Below are positions 13,692 through 31,950 of a stretch of DNA of 35,909 nucleotides, one piece after another. The DNA is from Anaerolineaceae bacterium (lineage in GTDB: Bacteria; Chloroflexota; Anaerolineae; JAAYZQ01). The notes beneath the pieces are model-generated. The model saw nothing but the letters and a program-made list of their open reading frames with translations, searched no databases and was not told the origin of the DNA. Numbering within the stretch: the stretch's first letter is position 1; the number at the start of each line of letters is the position of its first letter. Where the stretch lies: the NCBI GenBank assembly GCA_012514775.1, contig JAAYZQ010000062.1, positions 1-35,909 of the forward strand. The letters run 5' to 3'. Position numbers and translations under genes: made by a program.

Positions 13692-14741
13692 CTACATTTC
13701 CTTGCGGTAGGTGGTCATGCGCTTGACTACCTGGAACCCCATGCTCTTGTAGAGCTGCAGGGCGCCGTTGGGATTCTGGGCGTCGACGCCCAGGGCCGCC
13801 TCGGTCATGCCCAGGTCCTTGAGCAGGCGAAAGCTGCGGGCGATTAGGGCCTTGGCCAGGCCCTGGCGGCGCCAGGGGCGGCGCACGCTGATGCCCTCGG
13901 TGTAGCCCCGCAGCCGGCCGTACTCCTTGTTCTGCGCGTGGTCGATAAAGTTCTGCACCATGCCGGCCACCTCGTCGCCGTCCCAGGCCACCTGCCACAG
14001 CTCGGGCATAAAGGTCGGCGCTTCCCGCCAGCTTTCCAGCTCTTGCTCCCACTCGTGTTCACTGAAGCCCCAGTGGTCGCGAAAGGCCTCCTTGGACGCA
14101 TCCCAGATCTGGGGGATCTGCTCGGGCTGCACCGGCCGAACTTCCAGGCCGGGGGGCAGGGGCAGATCCGGGATGTTCTCCAGGTCCGGGCGCACCATCT
14201 CAAAACCGTAGCGGACCACCTCGTAGCCTTCCTCGCCGAGGAGCCGTTCCCAGTGGACCTCGCCGTCTTCGGCCCAGGCGTCCAGGAAGCGCGGCCCGTC
14301 GTCGGGATGCTCCGCGGCGATCTGGCGCAGGCGCTCTTCGTTGCGGTGCAGCATGGCGCGCCGGATGCCTTTGCCCCGCCACTCGGGCAGGAGGAAGACA
14401 AAGTGCGGGTAGCGCCGCAGGCCGCTGGCTTCCTGATCCCAGAAGACCCGCCCGTAGCCCACGACCTGCCCCTTGACCTCGGCAAAGATCATATCGCGGT
14501 AGGGATCGCAGTTGTACAGGTGGCGGTAGTTGCGGGCGATGTCTTCGAGGGTGTCGGTGCGCTCCACCCTGTCGGCTTCCTTGGACCCCTCGATGACAGC
14601 CAGCATCGACGGGTAGTCCACCTCGCCGCGGAATCCGCGAAAGACCAGGCCGGGCACCGACGGCGTGGCCGTCGGGGGACGCCCCGTCTCGGCGTCCCGG
14701 GTCACCGGATTCGTAATTCTTGTCTGCTCTCGTACTAACAT
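13692..14741 (-). CDS. Tandem-domain GNAT acetyltransferase (second copy in operon)
   Basis: The 349-residue protein holds two GNAT folds in a row. The first spans about 32-185 (acetyl-CoA loop around LPEWRGKGIRRAML) and the second about 195-345 (VRRPWRRQGLAKALIARS and LGVDAQNPNGALQLYKSMGF). The two-domain layout resembles mycothiol synthase (MshD)-like proteins, but other substrates, including antibiotics, are equally possible. The ATG at 14741 has AGAGG eight bases upstream and lies 23 bases after the RIO kinase stop codon. It is clearly paralogous to the GNAT at 16069: the segments RVERTDTLEDIARNY and FRDHWGFSEHEWEQ match QLERAVTLEGMQHEM and FRDHWGWTAFSYEEY. The second domain keeps the better acetyl-CoA motif. 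Confidence 0.85.
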   Translation of the reverse strand: MLVREQTRITNPVTRDAETGRPPTATPSVPGLVFRGFRGEVDYPSMLAVIEGSKEADRVERTDTLEDIARNYRHLYNCDPYRDMIFAEVKGQVVGYGRVFWDQEASGLRRYPHFVFLLPEWRGKGIRRAMLHRNEERLRQIAAEHPDDGPRFLDAWAEDGEVHWERLLGEEGYEVVRYGFEMVRPDLENIPDLPLPPGLEVRPVQPEQIPQIWDASKEAFRDHWGFSEHEWEQELESWREAPTFMPELWQVAWDGDEVAGMVQNFIDHAQNKEYGRLRGYTEGISVRRPWRRQGLAKALIARSFRLLKDLGMTEAALGVDAQNPNGALQLYKSMGFQVVKRMTTYRKEM

Positions 14742-14764: not shown

Positions 14765-15793
14765 TCAGGACTCTTGCAGAGCCAGTTCCATTTCCAACCG
14801 CGATTGGTCGGCGGCCGCGTCCTCCGGGTCGATCTCGGCCACGTGACGGCGCCACAGATCTCTGGCGATGGCCTCCGGATCGCAGTCCACGCCCTGGGCC
14901 GCAAAGTACTCGCACGTACGCAAGATGTCACGCTCCAGGATCATGCGGGCCCTGGGATTGCTGTGCAGGTTGACCACCTGCGGAAAGTCGATGATGGTGA
15001 TTGCGCCCTCCCAGTAGAGCACGTTGTAGGCCGAGAGGTCGCCGTGGATCAGGTCGTGATGCAGCATGAGATCCACGTTGCGCAACACCTCGCGGAACAG
15101 CTCCTGCGCTTCCTCGGCCTCCAGCTCCACGCTGTTCAGCGTCGGCGCGGCCATGGCCCGGTCGCCGTGGTAGCTCATCAGGATGGCATTGTCGCTGGCA
15201 TGGATGGGCCGCGGCACGGCGGCGCCGGCCTCGTACAGCCGTTCCATGGCCGTGAACTCGTACAGCAGCCACGACGTGTGGGCGGCCTGCTGCCCAAAGG
15301 CCGACTTGCTGCGGATGGCGCGCTCGATATAGCCCGAGTCGCGGCCCGCCGGCTTGCCGCTGCCGACCAGGATCTCCCGGCCGTGGCGGTACATGGCGTC
15401 GTTCCGCAGGTTGCGGAACATGCGCGGCCTGTAGACCTTGGCCGCCACCAGCTCCAGGCCGGTGGCGGGATGCGCCTGGCAGAGATAGACGCTGGCTTCC
15501 TTGCCGCCCTTGATCGCCGACAGGACGTCGGTGATGAGCCCTTCGTTGTAAAAAGCGTGCAGCGACGACAGCAGCCAGCCGCTCTCGTAGCGCGACGGCG
15601 TGTAGGTGGTCTCGAAGCCCAGCTCCACGTCCGACAGGTCATCCGTCAGCTCGGCCAGGATTTGCCCCTCGGCCTTTTTGGGTTTGTGGTTCCCCTTTCG
15701 CTTTCCGTTCCGTCCCGCGGGTAGGCCCGGGGTCGGGTCGTAAAGATCTTCGTAGCGTTCGTATTTGTCCAGGTAAGAGTCGTCACTCGTCAC
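14765..15793 (-). CDS. RIO1-type atypical serine kinase
   Basis: This is a bacterial RIO-family protein of 342 residues. Visible elements are a Lys/Arg-rich N-terminal stretch (about 28-40), the RIO phosphate loop KGGKEASVY (95-103), ATP-binding Lys119 in AAKVYRP, catalytic HGDLSAYNVL (250-259; Asp252, Asn257) and the metal-binding IIDFPQ (Asp269). All active-site residues are present. Archaeal and eukaryotic RIO kinases act in small-subunit ribosome maturation; the bacterial role is poorly known. The GTG start at 15793 is chosen because AAGGAG lies nine bases before it; a TTG at 15820 lies upstream of that site. It sits between the two GNAT genes and 23 bases from the small ORF upstream, consistent with an operon. 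Confidence 0.88.
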   Translation of the reverse strand: MTSDDSYLDKYERYEDLYDPTPGLPAGRNGKRKGNHKPKKAEGQILAELTDDLSDVELGFETTYTPSRYESGWLLSSLHAFYNEGLITDVLSAIKGGKEASVYLCQAHPATGLELVAAKVYRPRMFRNLRNDAMYRHGREILVGSGKPAGRDSGYIERAIRSKSAFGQQAAHTSWLLYEFTAMERLYEAGAAVPRPIHASDNAILMSYHGDRAMAAPTLNSVELEAEEAQELFREVLRNVDLMLHHDLIHGDLSAYNVLYWEGAITIIDFPQVVNLHSNPRARMILERDILRTCEYFAAQGVDCDPEAIARDLWRRHVAEIDPEDAAADQSRLEMELALQES

Positions 15794-15816
15794 CGTTGGA
15801 ATCTCCTTCAAAATGG

Positions 15817-16008
15817 TCAAGTACCTGGCCCTCGCCGGGTGCTGCCCCGGGGGTCCGGGGCCGGGATGACGGTCAGGCTCGGTCCTCGCCGGCCTGCCTT
15901 CCCGGTCGGCGGCCCTGCCCGATGGGCGTGGCCCGGCGACAGGCGATCCGTATTTCGCTCGATGTTTTTGCCCACGTCTGACACATCGCTTTCCTCTATC
16001 TCAACCAT
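15817..16008 (-). CDS. Possible small protein of 63 residues
   Basis: An ATG at 16008 is preceded by AGGAGG at an ideal eight-base distance, downstream of a small hairpin (GGCAC/GTGCC). The frame stays open for 63 codons to just 23 bases before the RIO kinase gene. The N-terminal part is acidic (VEIEESDVSDVGKNIERN), whereas the rest is rich in Pro, Gly and Arg, as random GC-rich sequence would be. It matches no family I know. It fills the 275-base gap between the GNAT and RIO genes. It could be a real small protein, a leader for rio translation, or a decayed ORF. Confidence 0.35.
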   Translation of the reverse strand: MVEIEESDVSDVGKNIERNTDRLSPGHAHRAGPPTGKAGRRGPSLTVIPAPDPRGSTRRGPGT

Positions 16009-16068: not shown

Positions 16069-17058
16069 TTAGCCGGCTAGGTTGCCGTTGTGCAGTGCGC
16101 GGCGATAGACCGCCGTGGTCTTGCGGACCTGGAAGCCCATCCGCTCGTAGATGCGCACCGCGCCTGTCAGGTTCTCGGCGTCGGCGCCCAGGTGAGCAAA
16201 TTCCATGCCCGCCTCCCGGAGCGTCCGCAGGCTGTGCGCCAGCAGGGCCGTCCCCAGCCCGAGCCGGCGGTACTCGCGCAGCACGCCCAGGATGCTGACC
16301 ACGCCCTCCTGCCGACCCGTCTCGGCGATCCAGTCCGGATCGATCTTGTTCAGGCAGATGCCCGCCATCTTGCCCGTGGCCTCCTCCTCGGCGATGAGCC
16401 ACAGCTCGGGCCGGAAGTGGGGCTGGTAGACCCAGTGCTCGTACTCCTCGTAAGAAAAGGCGGTCCAGCCCCAGTGGTCGCGGAACGAGTCCACGTCCAC
16501 GCGGTAGACGGCCTCCATGTCGCGGCTCGGGTCAAAGGTGCGCAGGCGAAAGCCGGACGGCGTCTCTGCCGGGGGCAAGCCGTTGTTGATGGGCCGCGCC
16601 ATGTCAAAGAAGTAGCGCACCCGGTGCATGCCAAAGCCCTCGAACAGGGCCCGCCGGTCTTCTTCGATATCGCGGCCGCTGCCCTGCAAGTATGCCGGCT
16701 TGTCGCCCAGCCCCTGCAGCCGTTGCGTGGCCCGGTGGTATAGGGTCTCCATCAGGTGCCGGCCGATGCCCAGGCGGCGCCAGCGAGGGTGGACCATTCC
16801 CCAGGTGTAAAAGAGAGTAGGAGCGTTCTCCTCGCCGGCTCGCATCAAGAAGTCGGCATAGGCCACCAGGCGGCCGTTCTTCCAGGCAAGGAAGCAGTCG
16901 GTTTCGGGATGGTAGTTCGGCCACGTCATCTCGTGCTGCATCCCCTCCAGGGTCACGGCCCGCTCGAGTTGATCGTATTCATTTGCCTCGTTGATCATTG
17001 CCACCAGCGCCGGCAGATCCTCAGGCTGGTAGTTGCGTACGATTACGTTCGCTGGCAT
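16069..17058 (-). CDS. Tandem-domain GNAT acetyltransferase (first copy in operon)
   Basis: The 329-residue protein has two GNAT domains. The first spans about 4-155 (acetyl-CoA loop HPRWRRLGIGRHLMETL) and the second about 165-320 (REYRRLGLGTALLAHSLRTL, then LGADAENLTGAVRIYERMGF). It is the paralogue of the GNAT at 13692. Two starts are plausible. ATG 17058 has AAGGAGG five bases upstream. ATG 17136, in frame, overlaps the MFS stop (ATGA), has AAGGAG seven bases upstream, and would add 26 residues similar in length to the paralogue's N-terminal tail. I use 17058 because the fold begins right after it. It probably acetylates a small molecule or peptide; the pairing with an exporter suggests detoxification, which is inference. 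Confidence 0.87.
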   Translation of the reverse strand: MPANVIVRNYQPEDLPALVAMINEANEYDQLERAVTLEGMQHEMTWPNYHPETDCFLAWKNGRLVAYADFLMRAGEENAPTLFYTWGMVHPRWRRLGIGRHLMETLYHRATQRLQGLGDKPAYLQGSGRDIEEDRRALFEGFGMHRVRYFFDMARPINNGLPPAETPSGFRLRTFDPSRDMEAVYRVDVDSFRDHWGWTAFSYEEYEHWVYQPHFRPELWLIAEEEATGKMAGICLNKIDPDWIAETGRQEGVVSILGVLREYRRLGLGTALLAHSLRTLREAGMEFAHLGADAENLTGAVRIYERMGFQVRKTTAVYRRALHNGNLAG

Positions 17059-17132: not shown

Positions 17133-18434
17133 TCATTGTCCTGCTCCTTGTGTTAGATCCAAAACGCCCTGCTCTCTGAGCAAAGCTGCGCGCCGCTGCC
17201 GATCGTCCGTCCTCTGAAAATAGCGCTTTTCCAGGACCGAAGCCACGATGTACAGCGTGCAGGTGATGACAAAGATCGGCTGGAAGCCGATGTCCGGATG
17301 GGCTTGCATGAAGCCACTCACAAAGGGCCCGATGGTCCAGCCGATGTTCCAGCTCATGCCCATCAGCCCGCTGATGGTTGCCCGCTCCCCTTCGGCCACC
17401 TGTTCCATGGCAAAGGCGCTGTACAGCGGGTTGCCCATGTTCATCAGCGCAGCTCGAACCCAGAAGGCCAGGCCCGATAGCCAGAAGATCCCCGAGAAAC
17501 CGATGAGCAGCAGGAAGGGGATCGATACCAGTTGTGTCAGCACCAGTGCCCGGATGCGTCCCCAGCGGTCGGCCAGCAGCGGCGAGGCCAGCGTCGCCAC
17601 GCCCGTTACCACCGACGATACGGCAAAGAGCGTGCCCAGGAGCCTGTCCGAGATGGCAAACGTCTCCTTGAAGAACAGGTTCATATACGGGATGAGGATG
17701 GCGGCCCCCATGGAGATGATGATGTTGGGCACAAAGATGCGCATCGCCAGGCGCGGGCTGGATAGGTTGCGCCACGGCAAAAACGAGCGCACCCGGGCTC
17801 CCTCGGGACGTGCCCCTTCCTCGATCATGAGCACCGGCACCACGGCCAGCAGTGCCAGGAGCACGATGGTAAACATCGTGGCCGCGTAGGCCTGCGGGCT
17901 CTCCACGCCGGCCCCCATGGCGTTCCCGAAAACCGTGGGCAGGTAGCCGCCCAACAGCGTTCCGAAGAACCCCACCAGGGTTTGCAACCCAAAGTTGGCG
18001 CTGAACAGCGTGTTGCGCTCCTCCTCCCTCGAGTTCTCCATCATGAACGGCGCGGCGCTCACCATCCACAGCGACTGCGCCACACCAAAGACGACCATCG
18101 AGATCCGCAGTGACCAGGGCCCCGGCGAGAATACGATGCCGAGATAGGCGACCAGCCGCCCGAGGTTGGCCAGGTTCATGGCCCGCTTGCGCCCGATCTG
18201 GTCCACCAGCACTCCGGCGGGCAAGGCGCTCAGCAGGGCGATGAGGTTCGGCATCGACTGCAGCTCGCCCAGGAATTGGCGCGAGTAGCCCTGGCTATCC
18301 ACGAACAGGTTAAAGATGAGCATGTAGATGCTATAGCCGAACCCCGTGATGACCGTGCTGAGCAGAAAGAGCCGCGCGTTGCGGCTAAAGCTCGCCAGTT
18401 GTTGTAGGTAGCGGCGTGTCGCACGAACGATCAT
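17133..18434 (-). CDS. 12-TM MFS transporter, first structural gene behind the attenuator
   Basis: The 433-residue polytopic protein has about twelve TM helices and the MFS motif A form GVLVDQIGRKR (74-84) between helices 2 and 3; related signals recur in the second half (LADRWGRIRAL). This is typical of drug or metabolite exporters, though importers cannot be excluded. The ATG at 18434 has GGAAAG and GAGGAG upstream. No credible promoter is visible in the 77 bases between terminator T2 and this start, so expression should depend on read-through from the promoter at 18735 past both leader terminators. It overlaps the alternative start of the following GNAT gene (ATGA). A toxic, translation-inhibiting substrate would fit the regulation, but that is a hypothesis. 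Confidence 0.88.
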   Translation of the reverse strand: MIVRATRRYLQQLASFSRNARLFLLSTVITGFGYSIYMLIFNLFVDSQGYSRQFLGELQSMPNLIALLSALPAGVLVDQIGRKRAMNLANLGRLVAYLGIVFSPGPWSLRISMVVFGVAQSLWMVSAAPFMMENSREEERNTLFSANFGLQTLVGFFGTLLGGYLPTVFGNAMGAGVESPQAYAATMFTIVLLALLAVVPVLMIEEGARPEGARVRSFLPWRNLSSPRLAMRIFVPNIIISMGAAILIPYMNLFFKETFAISDRLLGTLFAVSSVVTGVATLASPLLADRWGRIRALVLTQLVSIPFLLLIGFSGIFWLSGLAFWVRAALMNMGNPLYSAFAMEQVAEGERATISGLMGMSWNIGWTIGPFVSGFMQAHPDIGFQPIFVITCTLYIVASVLEKRYFQRTDDRQRRAALLREQGVLDLTQGAGQ

Positions 18435-18511
18435 CAGCTTTCCAGGCTCCTCGTGTTTGTCAAGGTTGTGTTGCCCCGCTCCAGGTCCTTCTCCAGAATT
18501 GGCGGACCAAC

Positions 18512-18542
18512 AAAAAAGCCGTGGGATCCTCTTCCCACGGCT
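18512..18542 (-). terminator. Intrinsic terminator T2 in the MFS leader
   Basis: On the minus strand, the arms AGCCGTGGGA and TCCCACGGCT form a 10-bp stem with a six-base loop, followed by a run of six U. The stem core is the same as in T1. It lies 77 bases before the MFS start codon. Confidence 0.85.
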
Positions 18543-18568
18543 CTCGGGCGACGCGCGCCCCGGAAACT

Positions 18569-18605
18569 AAAAAGGCCGTGGGATCCAGTGCTCCCACGGC
18601 CTTTT
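18569..18605 (-). terminator. Intrinsic terminator T1 in the MFS leader (attenuator terminator)
   Basis: The arms AAAAGGCCGTGGGA and TCCCACGGCCTTTT form a perfect 14-bp stem with an eight-base loop, with U5 on the minus strand. The A/U flanks also make it usable from the plus strand. It begins 12 bases after the leader ORF stop codon, and its 5' arm and loop can alternatively pair with the end of that ORF. Confidence 0.9.
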
Positions 18606-18706
18606 ACTTAACGATAACTAGAGGCGTGTGGGCGCACTACGAGAAACAGCAGCACCGATGCTGGTGAACTCGGCACGATAGATGGTTTGCTGCATGTAGC
18701 GCATCC
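18587..18706 (-). promoter_or_regulatory. Predicted ribosome-controlled transcription attenuator
   Basis: Three RNA segments can pair in exclusive ways. Segment 1 (18696-18706, GGAUGCGCUAC, including the leader start codon) pairs with segment 2 (18630-18640, GUAGUGCGCCC) at 10 of 11 positions, two of them G-U. Segment 2 (18622-18638) pairs with segment 3 (18587-18602, the T1 5' arm and loop) by 14 bp: GCCU/AGGC, CCCAC/GUGGG, GUGC/GCAC and A/U, broken by one mismatch and one small internal loop. Segment 3 with 4 is T1. A ribosome stalled early masks segment 1 and frees 2 to block T1; a ribosome finishing the ORF masks 2 and lets T1 form. This is the architecture of classical attenuation. The inducer is unknown. 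Confidence 0.7.
18618..18704 (-). CDS. 28-residue leader peptide upstream of the MFS operon
   Basis: ATG at 18704 follows AAGGAGG (18712-18718) by seven bases, an ideal initiation site, and lies 30 bases downstream of a near-consensus -10 box. The 28 codons read MRYMQQTIYRAEF (1-13) then TSIGAAVSRSAPTRL (14-28), ending in TAG at 18618. Terminator T1 follows after 12 bases. It shows no run of one amino acid, so amino-acid starvation control as in trp or his leaders is not obvious; a drug- or metabolite-dependent arrest peptide, as in erm or cat leaders, fits better. The last seven codons form the antiterminator strand. I know no homologue. Confidence 0.7.
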   Translation of the reverse strand: MRYMQQTIYRAEFTSIGAAVSRSAPTRL

Positions 18707-18734
18707 AGTTGCCTCCTTTCATAGACTGCGCGCC

Positions 18735-18763
18735 ATTCTAGATCAAGTGCTCTGAATTGTCAA
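18735..18763 (-). promoter_or_regulatory. Near-consensus promoter of the leader/MFS/GNAT/RIO operon
   Basis: On the minus strand, TTGACA (18758-18763) and TAGAAT (18735-18740) are exactly 17 bases apart. Transcription should start near 18728, 24 bases before the leader peptide start codon. Confidence 0.88.
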
Positions 18764-18802: not shown

Positions 18803-19612
18803 CTAGGGGCCGAACCGCAGAAGGATGGCCAGCCCGAGCATGGCAACCACGGCATACTCGATCAACAGCCGGCGGGTCAGGCGCCCCTGGAGCTGCTGGT
18901 TGGCCAGCCCGGTGGCGACGTAAAAGCCGAGGAGCAGGATCAGCCCGCCGGTGATGCCCGAGATGCGCCAGTAGTTCATGGCCCAGATGATCTCGCCCGT
19001 CGACAGGCCGGCGATGGCGGCATAGAGCGCCGTCCGGCCAAAGCCCCGGCCCGCGCTGCGCAGGAACTCCAGGGCGAGGAGCGCGCTGACCAGGGACACT
19101 CCCGTGGCCGAGACGAGGCTGCGGGCTTTCGCCGAATAGATCAGGGTAAAGAGGACGATGGCCAGGAAGTAGGCCCAACCGTTGAGGCTCAGGCGGGCGG
19201 CAAGATAGCGCGGGCTGGCATGGTCGACGGTATAGTACTCGGCGCTGATGACGAGGATCAGGATCAATCCGGTGAGGATATAGCCCACCAACTGGTAGAG
19301 GCGGGTGGGCGCCTGCGGCAGCAGGATGGTCGCCAGCAGCACCGTCAGGGCGGGCAACGTCCATGTGACAAAGCTGAAGCGGGCCTCGATACGCTGCGCC
19401 GTGGGGTGCGAGCGCACGATGGCGTCGGTTCCGGCGCAGGTGATCCCCACCAGGAGCGCCGCCATAAGGGCCGTCTGGGAGACGTTGATCCGCAGCGGCG
19501 AGCCCAGGACCGTCAGGTCGTGGCTCCAGGGCGGGAGTTCCAGGAACGCCGCCAGGATCAGGCCCAGGACCACCAGCGTAGCCACCACGCTGGCGCGATC
19601 ACGATAGAGCAT
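18803..19612 (-). CDS. Polytopic membrane protein of unknown function
   Basis: The 269-residue protein has about eight hydrophobic helices across its whole length and few charged residues. I do not recognise conserved catalytic motifs. The composition and size bring to mind the DUF5656 family of Chloroflexota membrane proteins, but I cannot confirm it. The ATG at 19612 has GGAGG nine bases upstream and a promoter at 19639-19667; a longer reading to 19693 would run through that promoter. It is transcribed divergently from the radical SAM/HhH gene and ends about 40 bases before the promoter of the attenuator-controlled operon. Confidence 0.8.
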   Translation of the reverse strand: MLYRDRASVVATLVVLGLILAAFLELPPWSHDLTVLGSPLRINVSQTALMAALLVGITCAGTDAIVRSHPTAQRIEARFSFVTWTLPALTVLLATILLPQAPTRLYQLVGYILTGLILILVISAEYYTVDHASPRYLAARLSLNGWAYFLAIVLFTLIYSAKARSLVSATGVSLVSALLALEFLRSAGRGFGRTALYAAIAGLSTGEIIWAMNYWRISGITGGLILLLGFYVATGLANQQLQGRLTRRLLIEYAVVAMLGLAILLRFGP

Positions 19613-19733: not shown

Positions 19734-19761
19734 TTGACAGCCGGAACACGTGTGCTATAAT
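19734..19761 (+). promoter_or_regulatory. Promoter for the radical SAM/HhH-CDF operon
   Basis: TTGACA (19734-19739) and TATAAT (19756-19761) are 16 bases apart. Transcription from about 19768 excludes an in-frame start at 19750 and supports ATG 19786. Confidence 0.85.
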
Positions 19762-30936: not shown

Positions 30937-31950
30937 ATGGATCTGAACACCATCTGGTTTGTCCTGCTCATGTTCCTGTTTACCGGCTATTTCCTGTTGG
31001 AAGGTTTTGACTATGGCGTCGGCGTTCTCCTGCCCTTCCTGGGCAAGGACGACGCCGACCGGCGGGTCATCGTCAACACCATCGGGCCCTTCTGGGACGC
31101 CAACGAGGTGTGGCTCGTCACGGCCGGCGCCTCGATGTTTGCCGCCTTTCCCCACTGGTACGCCACCCTCTTTAGCGGCTTTCACATCGCGCTGCTGCTC
31201 CTGCTGGTGTCGCTCATCTTTCGCGGGGTCGCCTTCGAGTTCCGGAGCAAGGACCGCCATCCGCGGTGGCGCAGCCTGTGGGATTGGTCCATCTTTGCCG
31301 GCGGCCTGGTGCCGGCGCTGCTGTGGGGCATTGCCTTTGCCAACATTGTGCGGGGCGTGCCCATCGGCCCCGACATGCAGTACCAGGGGGGCTTCTGGAA
31401 CCTGCTGAATCCCTACGCCCTGTCGGGCGGGCTGGCGTTCCTGGCCCTCTTTACCCTGCACGGCGCCGTCTTTTTGAACCTGCGCACCAGGGGCGAGATG
31501 CTGGAGCGCGCTCAGAAAGCGGCCGAGCGCCTGTGGCTGCCCACCGTGGTGCTGGTCGCCATCTTTGTGGTGGGCGGCTACCTGGCCACCGACATGTTCA
31601 GCCGCCTGGGGCTCAACCCCGGCCCCGTGCCCCTGGGAGCCGGCGCGGCCCTCCTGGCCGTGGGCTGGTTTATCCGGCAGCGATCCCACGGCTGGGCCTT
31701 TGCCATGACCTCCCTGAGCATCGCCCTGTCGGCCGCCGGCGTGGCCATGGGCCTCTATCCGCGCGTGATGGTTTCCAGCCTGAACGATGCCTGGAGCCTC
31801 ACGATCTATAACGCCTCGTCCAGCCCCTACACGCTGCAGGTGATGAGCATCGTGGCCCTCGTCATCCTGCCCGTCGTCCTGATCTACCAGGGCTGGAGCT
31901 ATTGGGTTTTCCGCAAGCGCGTCGGACGCGAAGACGTCCTGGAGTATTAA
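30937..31950 (+). CDS. cydB: Cytochrome bd oxidase subunit II
   Basis: The 337-residue subunit has about eight to nine TM helices. The N-terminus shows the CydB pattern FLLEGFDYGVGVLLPFLGK (about 19-37), with GPFWDANEVWLVTAGASMFAAFP (50-72) and FRGVAFEFR (95-103). It pairs with CydA to reduce oxygen to water with quinol electrons without pumping protons. AGGAGG lies upstream of ATG 30937. The gene is intact, which argues that the stop in cydA is recent, suppressed, or a sequence error. The following amidohydrolase starts five bases after its stop codon. Confidence 0.93.
   Translation: MDLNTIWFVLLMFLFTGYFLLEGFDYGVGVLLPFLGKDDADRRVIVNTIGPFWDANEVWLVTAGASMFAAFPHWYATLFSGFHIALLLLLVSLIFRGVAFEFRSKDRHPRWRSLWDWSIFAGGLVPALLWGIAFANIVRGVPIGPDMQYQGGFWNLLNPYALSGGLAFLALFTLHGAVFLNLRTRGEMLERAQKAAERLWLPTVVLVAIFVVGGYLATDMFSRLGLNPGPVPLGAGAALLAVGWFIRQRSHGWAFAMTSLSIALSAAGVAMGLYPRVMVSSLNDAWSLTIYNASSSPYTLQVMSIVALVILPVVLIYQGWSYWVFRKRVGREDVLEY

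Follow-up and report, generated by a model that had tools for sequence, protein, structure and literature searches.

Attenuators of the trp type are built from exclusive RNA segments ordered 1:2, 2:3 and 3:4, as in the leader described here. To our knowledge, leader-peptide attenuators of resistance genes have been described singly, per gene or operon. In Bacillus subtilis, the bmrBCD leader is translated and its ABC exporter is induced by ribosome-targeting drugs; the portion of the source used here deals with one operon, whose 53-codon leader carries a single terminator inside the ORF, and describes no set of clients sharing the RNA (PMC4191407). The vmlR leader of the same species precedes an ABC-F gene. 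Stalling in its uORF blocks the anti-antiterminator and the antiterminator forms, the accepted logic being that the antiterminator gets the chance to form first; in the parts of the paper cited here, there is one gene and one terminator, and translation of the gene is controlled as well (PMC9226507). For the macrolide attenuator of mef(E)/mel, the sections used describe transcription attenuation of an efflux operon by an 8-residue leader peptide containing RLR (PMC4335068).

The leader that we analyzed lies within a 35,909-nucleotide stretch of an Anaerolineaceae bacterium (the window). Like the BmrCD and VmlR leaders, it has its own promoter, a leader ORF led by a Shine-Dalgarno sequence (SD) and an intrinsic terminator before the client gene, and its exclusive antiterminator and anti-antiterminator are conserved, though folding without a ribosome agrees only partly with this scheme. 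The mechanism is thus of a known kind; what is new is a common core over many clients and phyla, possibly with coupled terminators. As with bmrBCD, ABC exporters with a fused membrane domain are frequent clients in the family. RxR, which recalls the RLR of mef(E)/mel, is enriched among its leaders, with no clear excess in the smallest thinned set, but the RNA is another one and the window leader lacks such a motif before the core. Compared with trp-type attenuators, the family has no regulatory codon run and different clients. We searched the open literature on leader peptides and attenuation together with Chloroflexi, Anaerolineae and rsgA (subscription papers and preprints being outside its scope) and saw no description of this family; no Chloroflexi names were found in PMC2965389.

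Results

The window leader and its genes

All features of the locus are on the minus strand:

18735..18763, minus strand: sigma-70-type promoter TTGACA-17-TAGAAT (-35 TTGACA 18763-18758, -10 TAGAAT 18740-18735, spacer 17; 11 of 12 consensus matches in the promoter scan)
18712..18719, minus strand: Shine-Dalgarno sequence AAAGGAGG of the leader ORF
18618..18704, minus strand: leader ORF MRYMQQTIYRAEFTSIGAAVSRSAPTRL, 28 codons, from ATG at 18704 to TAG at 18618
18696..18706, minus strand: segment 1, around the leader start codon; partner of segment 2 (anti-antiterminator 1:2)
18622..18640, minus strand: segment 2, overlapping the last codons of the leader ORF; can pair with segment 1 or 3
18638-18631, minus strand: conserved core AGTGCGCC inside segment 2
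18586..18602, minus strand: segment 3, the T1 5' arm and loop; partner of segment 2 (antiterminator 2:3)
18569..18605, minus strand: terminator T1, helix 3:4 and U-tract (core 18601-18574)
18508..18545, minus strand: terminator T2, helix 5:6 and U-tract (core 18542-18517)
17133..18434, minus strand: MFS transporter, first client gene, ATG at 18434 (Pfam MFS_1, 2.3e-38)
16069..17058, minus strand: GNAT acetyltransferase with two matching stretches
14765..15820, minus strand: RIO-domain kinase
13692..14741, minus strand: second GNAT acetyltransferase, two matching stretches

The promoter, the leader ORF, both terminators and the helices 1:2, 2:3 and 3:4 were recovered at the positions given in a preliminary description made from the letters alone. 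In addition, the T2 5' arm is able to pair with the T1 3' arm (helix 4:5). A scan of 9 kb returned 3 promoter-like sites, against 1.1 +/- 1.1 in shuffles. The same description had seen no credible promoter between T2 and the MFS start, and the scan indeed calls none there, despite a TTGACA hexamer at 18463-18458 shortly 5' of that start. The gene upstream of the leader ends at 18803 on the same strand. The four downstream genes presumably form one operon.

Rfam matched no family in the window at gathering score, the leader giving sub-threshold hits only; on 20 loci of the family described below, it found two tRNAs and no other match. Elsewhere in the window, a full-consensus promoter (TTGACA-16-TATAAT with a TG before the -10, at 19734-19761 on the plus strand, in DNA of 67% G+C) lies directly 5' of a radical SAM gene, and a hairpin at 31656-31693 weakly matches the T1 part of our covariance model on both strands (10-11 bits).

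We then asked how strong the pairings are in the window alone. Helix 2:3 has an energy of -22.7 kcal/mol as an isolated duplex. Within the upstream leader, the T1 5' half pairs best with segment 2, and a partner at least as good occurs in 14 of 1000 dinucleotide-shuffled leaders; for 1:2, 29 of 1000 shuffles equal or beat the window. Both pairings are thus suggestive in the window, modestly significant and not decisive. That they are more than chance follows from a family of 79 members.

Relatives of the leader and of the exporter

Searching the window leader DNA against 298 genomes of one class gave matches in 11 genomes; in several of them, unrelated genes were preceded by similar terminators and a leader ORF that encodes RSAP. 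A strict pattern was found in 28 of 396 genomes of the class (reversed control pattern, 3 of 396). From an alignment of the window and 27 other leaders we built a covariance model, which gave a match at E <=0.01 in 194 of the same 396 genomes, low-score false hits included; by hand count, about 120 reach 1e-6. Some genomes have more than one match: at 1e-4, G380 and G355 have four each. The family set used below (n=79) consists of the window, the 27 early members and 51 further members read down to 46 bits. Three of the 28 pattern matches (L055, L071 and L075), judged to be chance from their surroundings, were dropped, and L107 and L108 were added from the leader DNA search.

Below this score, we read 20 matches of 37-46 bits, a part of those given by the model, and six from a phylum-wide draw; a fitting leader ORF was present in 23 of these 26. 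Low scores are mixed: 12 places at 22-34 bits in another phylum comprise 6 members and 6 sites without such a leader. The phylum-wide draw gave matches at 1e-6 in 13 of its 251 genomes, and two groups that are probably other classes have matches in 2 of 2 and 2 of 91 genomes. Within the family, a promoter with at least 10 of 12 consensus bases lies within 100 bases 5' of the leader start in 60 of 72 leaders, compared with 0.8% of shuffles.

The leader is also present in the phylum of a Candidatus Edwardsbacteria MAG, where 7 of 10 genomes match at 0.01 and 6 of 10 (L252-L256 and L258) have the architecture of leader ORF, T1 and T2. Since these genomes, meant as the negative control, contain members, the covariance model has no clean outgroup control. 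The core of these members is GGTGCGCC or TTGCGCC; five of the six have a promoter of 11/12, only two have an SD of at least 4 bases, and the 2:3 pairing of each is equalled by only 2-3% of its loop shuffles in all six. In all five with downstream sequence, rsgA follows 303-392 bases downstream. These genes score above the TIGR00157 cut-off and below the cut-offs of two other RsgA models.

Relatives of the MFS exporter were followed as well. Proteins 68-93% identical to it exist, the named close relatives being from Chloroflexi and Anaerolineae MAGs (91%). At E 0.05, the covariance model found no such leader in 43 loci (L001-L043) of MFS relatives at most 48% identical. The upstream DNA of L001-L036, where present, was scanned for terminators and contained a hairpin in L027, L028 and L030 only; these distant relatives were rejected as members, as they have a single strong hairpin and T-run of another kind and lack a fitting leader ORF. 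No MFS relative was found in viral contigs and no DNA match in plasmids. Six pattern matches in viral contigs were also rejected: the best model score there was 13 bits, elsewhere in the locus.

Conservation of the helices

If 2:3 is a functional helix, each segment 2 should fit its own T1 better than that of another member. The pairing reached -21.1 with own partners and -18.8 +/- 0.27 with partners swapped among members, and 0 of 5000 swaps reached the own value. It was stronger than the average for loop-shuffled T1 in 78 of 79 members, and stronger than 95% of shuffles in 61 of 79. Among the first 28 members, segment 2 preferred T1 over T2 in all 23 with a parsed T2. Helix 1:2 was better than shuffles in 63 of 73 leaders, and again own partners were better than swapped ones.

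The T1 hairpin itself was compared over 100 matches: 98.1% of cells were paired and both sides had changed in 9 of 9 pairs. Double changes filled 80 cells, versus 18.5 in shuffles, a count that leans towards the hairpin because the alignment was fitted to it. The T1 3' arm and the T2 5' arm (4:5) also co-vary (own -19.7, swapped -16.7 +/- 0.27; 0 of 5000), which suggests that one decision opens both terminators; the likeness of T1 and T2 could alternatively come from duplication. T2 was parsed in 75 of 79 members, some parses being doubtful.

Because members share ancestry, the permutation figures are not strict probabilities, but they hold after thinning, done by a crude identity measure. With 58, 32 and 15 representatives, 0 of 3000 swaps reached the own value for 2:3 or 4:5; 12 members with doubtful T2 parses were excluded from this 4:5 test and kept in that on the full set. 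For 1:2 (55, 29 and 14 representatives), swaps reached it in 0, 0 and 21 of 3000.

Leader ORFs and reading frames

An SD-preceded ORF of 12-50 codons is found in 73 of 79 members, its stop ending between +1 and +31 from the A of AGTGCGCC. The rule used allowed stop ends from -5 to +47 and was satisfied by 11.2% of 1560 dinucleotide shuffles. L094 and L170 have a leader ORF without an SD that passes the rule. The preliminary description had tied its reading to a leader ORF and a 2:3 pairing being kept at orthologous loci. Both are kept in these related loci, which precede other genes and are not orthologues of the window operon. Taken together, the family sequences show the exclusive helices 1:2, 2:3 and 3:4, followed by T2, as predicted structures kept along with a leader ORF whose stop falls within segment 2 or shortly after it.

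Stop ends concentrate at three positions, +21 (34 leaders), +27 (10 leaders) and +2 (10 leaders). With such stops, a ribosome that finishes the ORF would lie on segment 2. The core is read in frame 0 by 56 of the 73 leaders, in another frame by 12 and in the third by 5. RSAP is read exactly in 35 of the 56 frame-0 leaders, with 0-6 residues, or slightly more, after it (the window peptide ends RSAPTRL), while in the ten leaders with a stop at +2 the TAG overlaps the first bases of the core. At L107:3265-3361, the core is changed to GTGTGCCC, 2:3 stands at -21.8 and the peptide ends VCPLAAG instead of RSAP. Since the finishing ribosome would sit on segment 2 while the peptide differs, we take the RNA, not the peptide, as the conserved part. 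Three reading frames over one RNA core likewise suggest that ribosome position counts for more than peptide sequence.

Folding of the growing transcript

The growing transcript of the window was folded with a ribosome footprint at chosen codons, taking 18703 instead of 18704 as the leader start, so that the simulated ribosome is shifted by one base. With the ribosome at the last leader codon, 2:3 was absent at every length and T1 formed as soon as possible. With the ribosome at codons 2-8, 2:3 reached 0.78 of the arm, the maximum that the helix allows, until the 3' end passed 18578; it was kept up to 18578 for all of codons 2-8, or 18576 for codons 2-6. When no ribosome was placed, or the ribosome stood at codon 12, 1:2 formed first, then 2:3 led at 3' ends 18588-18580 (up to 0.75) before yielding to T1 by 18578, a few bases before the codon 2-8 states.

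In this model, a finishing ribosome is clearly separated from an early one, and an early one from none by a few bases only. The exclusion of 2:3 at the last codon and its longest persistence at codons 2-8 agree with a translation-sensing switch, but the state without a ribosome also passes through 2:3. Folding thus bears out the protective role of 1:2 only in part, and the main argument for this role is the conservation of the helix.

At full length, T1 was favoured at equilibrium in every state (p 0.76-1.0), so the decision must be kinetic and taken during transcription. Helix 4:5 folded at -27.3, compared with -22.1 for T2 alone. Once segment 6 is present, T2 has an advantage of about 6 kcal/mol over 4:5, and 4:5 too would therefore be kinetic.

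Client genes and possible signal

We analyzed 75 downstream genes, i.e. the 79 minus L109 and L171 (no readable downstream gene) and L097 and L152 (doubtful ORFs). Within 700 bases, the longest frame was taken as the client, which in some cases is a gene other than the first and in a few (e.g. L085 and L196) is likely a wrong frame. Pfam matches, several of which may fall in one protein, were ABC_tran (40), Acetyltransf_7 (GNAT; 17), ABC_membrane (14) and ABC_tran_Xtn (ABC-F type; 5), with rarer ones to MFS_1 (3), HAD_2 (3), ABC2_membrane (3), RIO1 (1) and RtcB (1). By comparison, in 27 upstream open frames (longest open stretches, uncurated), ABC_tran, GNAT and MFS were absent among 25 of the 27 families found.

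Among solved structures, the ABC-F protein of L167 is closest by sequence to EttA. The matches of the L084 protein include P-glycoprotein, TM_0288 and further multidrug exporters. L151:1480-2424 encodes a RIO kinase that shares 46% identity with that of the window and stands behind the same kind of leader, so RIO recurs as a client. The first-client translations of L163, L185 and L176 resemble HAD-type hydrolases and have no obvious resistance link.

The 73 leaders have no residue run in common, only ten short runs of various residues, which makes amino-acid starvation unlikely as the signal. An R/K-x-R/K motif precedes the core in 26 of 73 leaders versus 11.4 expected, the sole excess among spacings 0-5. 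After thinning, RxR was found in 8 of 29 leaders versus 2.8 expected, and the smallest set gave no clear excess (2 of 14 versus 1.4). Ketolides mainly stall ribosomes at the R/K-x-R/K motif, according to the part of PMC8298421 used here. Some members are perhaps tuned to macrolide-like drugs. More generally, the signal would be hindered early elongation, read by a general sensor, and the window operon would be drug-inducible.

Discussion

We consider it likely that the window leader attenuates transcription under control of the ribosome, as one member of a family that shares a single RNA core. The translation-sensing reading of the preliminary description gains support from the conservation of leader ORF, 2:3 and 1:2 across this family. 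In the mechanism that we propose, 1:2 would form when no ribosome is present, and T1 and T2 would end transcription. A ribosome that completes the ORF would rest on segment 2, and both terminators would again act. If a ribosome instead starts and is then held up within roughly the first eight codons, as by elongation inhibitors, it would cover segment 1 and leave segment 2 free; 2:3 could then form before segment 4 is made and RNA polymerase would read into the exporter operon. With T1 opened, its free 3' arm would take the T2 5' arm in helix 4:5, so that a single decision would open both terminators.

The recurrence of RSAP over the core, in most frame-0 leaders and in the window, at first suggested that this ending is an arrest peptide and that the stall it causes is the signal. 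We dropped this idea because other frames appeared, in which 17 of the 73 leaders (12 and 5) read the core; in addition, 21 of the 56 frame-0 leaders lack RSAP, and ten leaders stop at a TAG overlapping the core start. Moreover, by stalling at RSAP a ribosome would mask segment 2 and favour termination instead of expression. Nascent-chain arrest is thus very improbable as the basis of control. Stalling by a scarce charged tRNA would use the same helix logic as trp-type attenuators, but the leaders lack the codon run by which those are recognized and the clients are mostly ABC proteins, GNATs and exporters instead of biosynthesis genes, which leaves an amino-acid attenuator barely credible.

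A ligand or protein could also act on the hairpins independently of any ribosome, or T1 and T2 could merely be the terminators of the upstream gene. Both look strong, that gene ends shortly before the leader on the same strand, and the transcript passes through 2:3 without a ribosome. However, a promoter lies between that gene and the terminators, here as in most members, the leader ORFs have preferred stop positions, and the window holds no Rfam family at gathering score. We judge control independent of the ribosome, in either form, to be highly unlikely, and retain the ribosome-controlled attenuator.

A wider reading is that the element is a modular attenuator, placed in at least two phyla before dozens of unrelated operons of resistance type or linked to the ribosome. 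Such a regulon would be encoded in RNA and need no regulator protein, and its two terminators would be chained, with 2:3 opening T1 and the freed 3' arm then disarming T2 through 4:5. We put this forward tentatively, as a possibility somewhat short of even. Shared by genes for ABC exporters, ABC-F proteins, acetyltransferases, RIO kinases and RsgA, a single RNA core would amount to a general alarm for stalled translation in uncultivated bacteria. The three frames read over one RNA element are a natural experiment that sets ribosome position against peptide sequence. If the reading is true, the genes behind the leader are candidates for unknown resistance genes.
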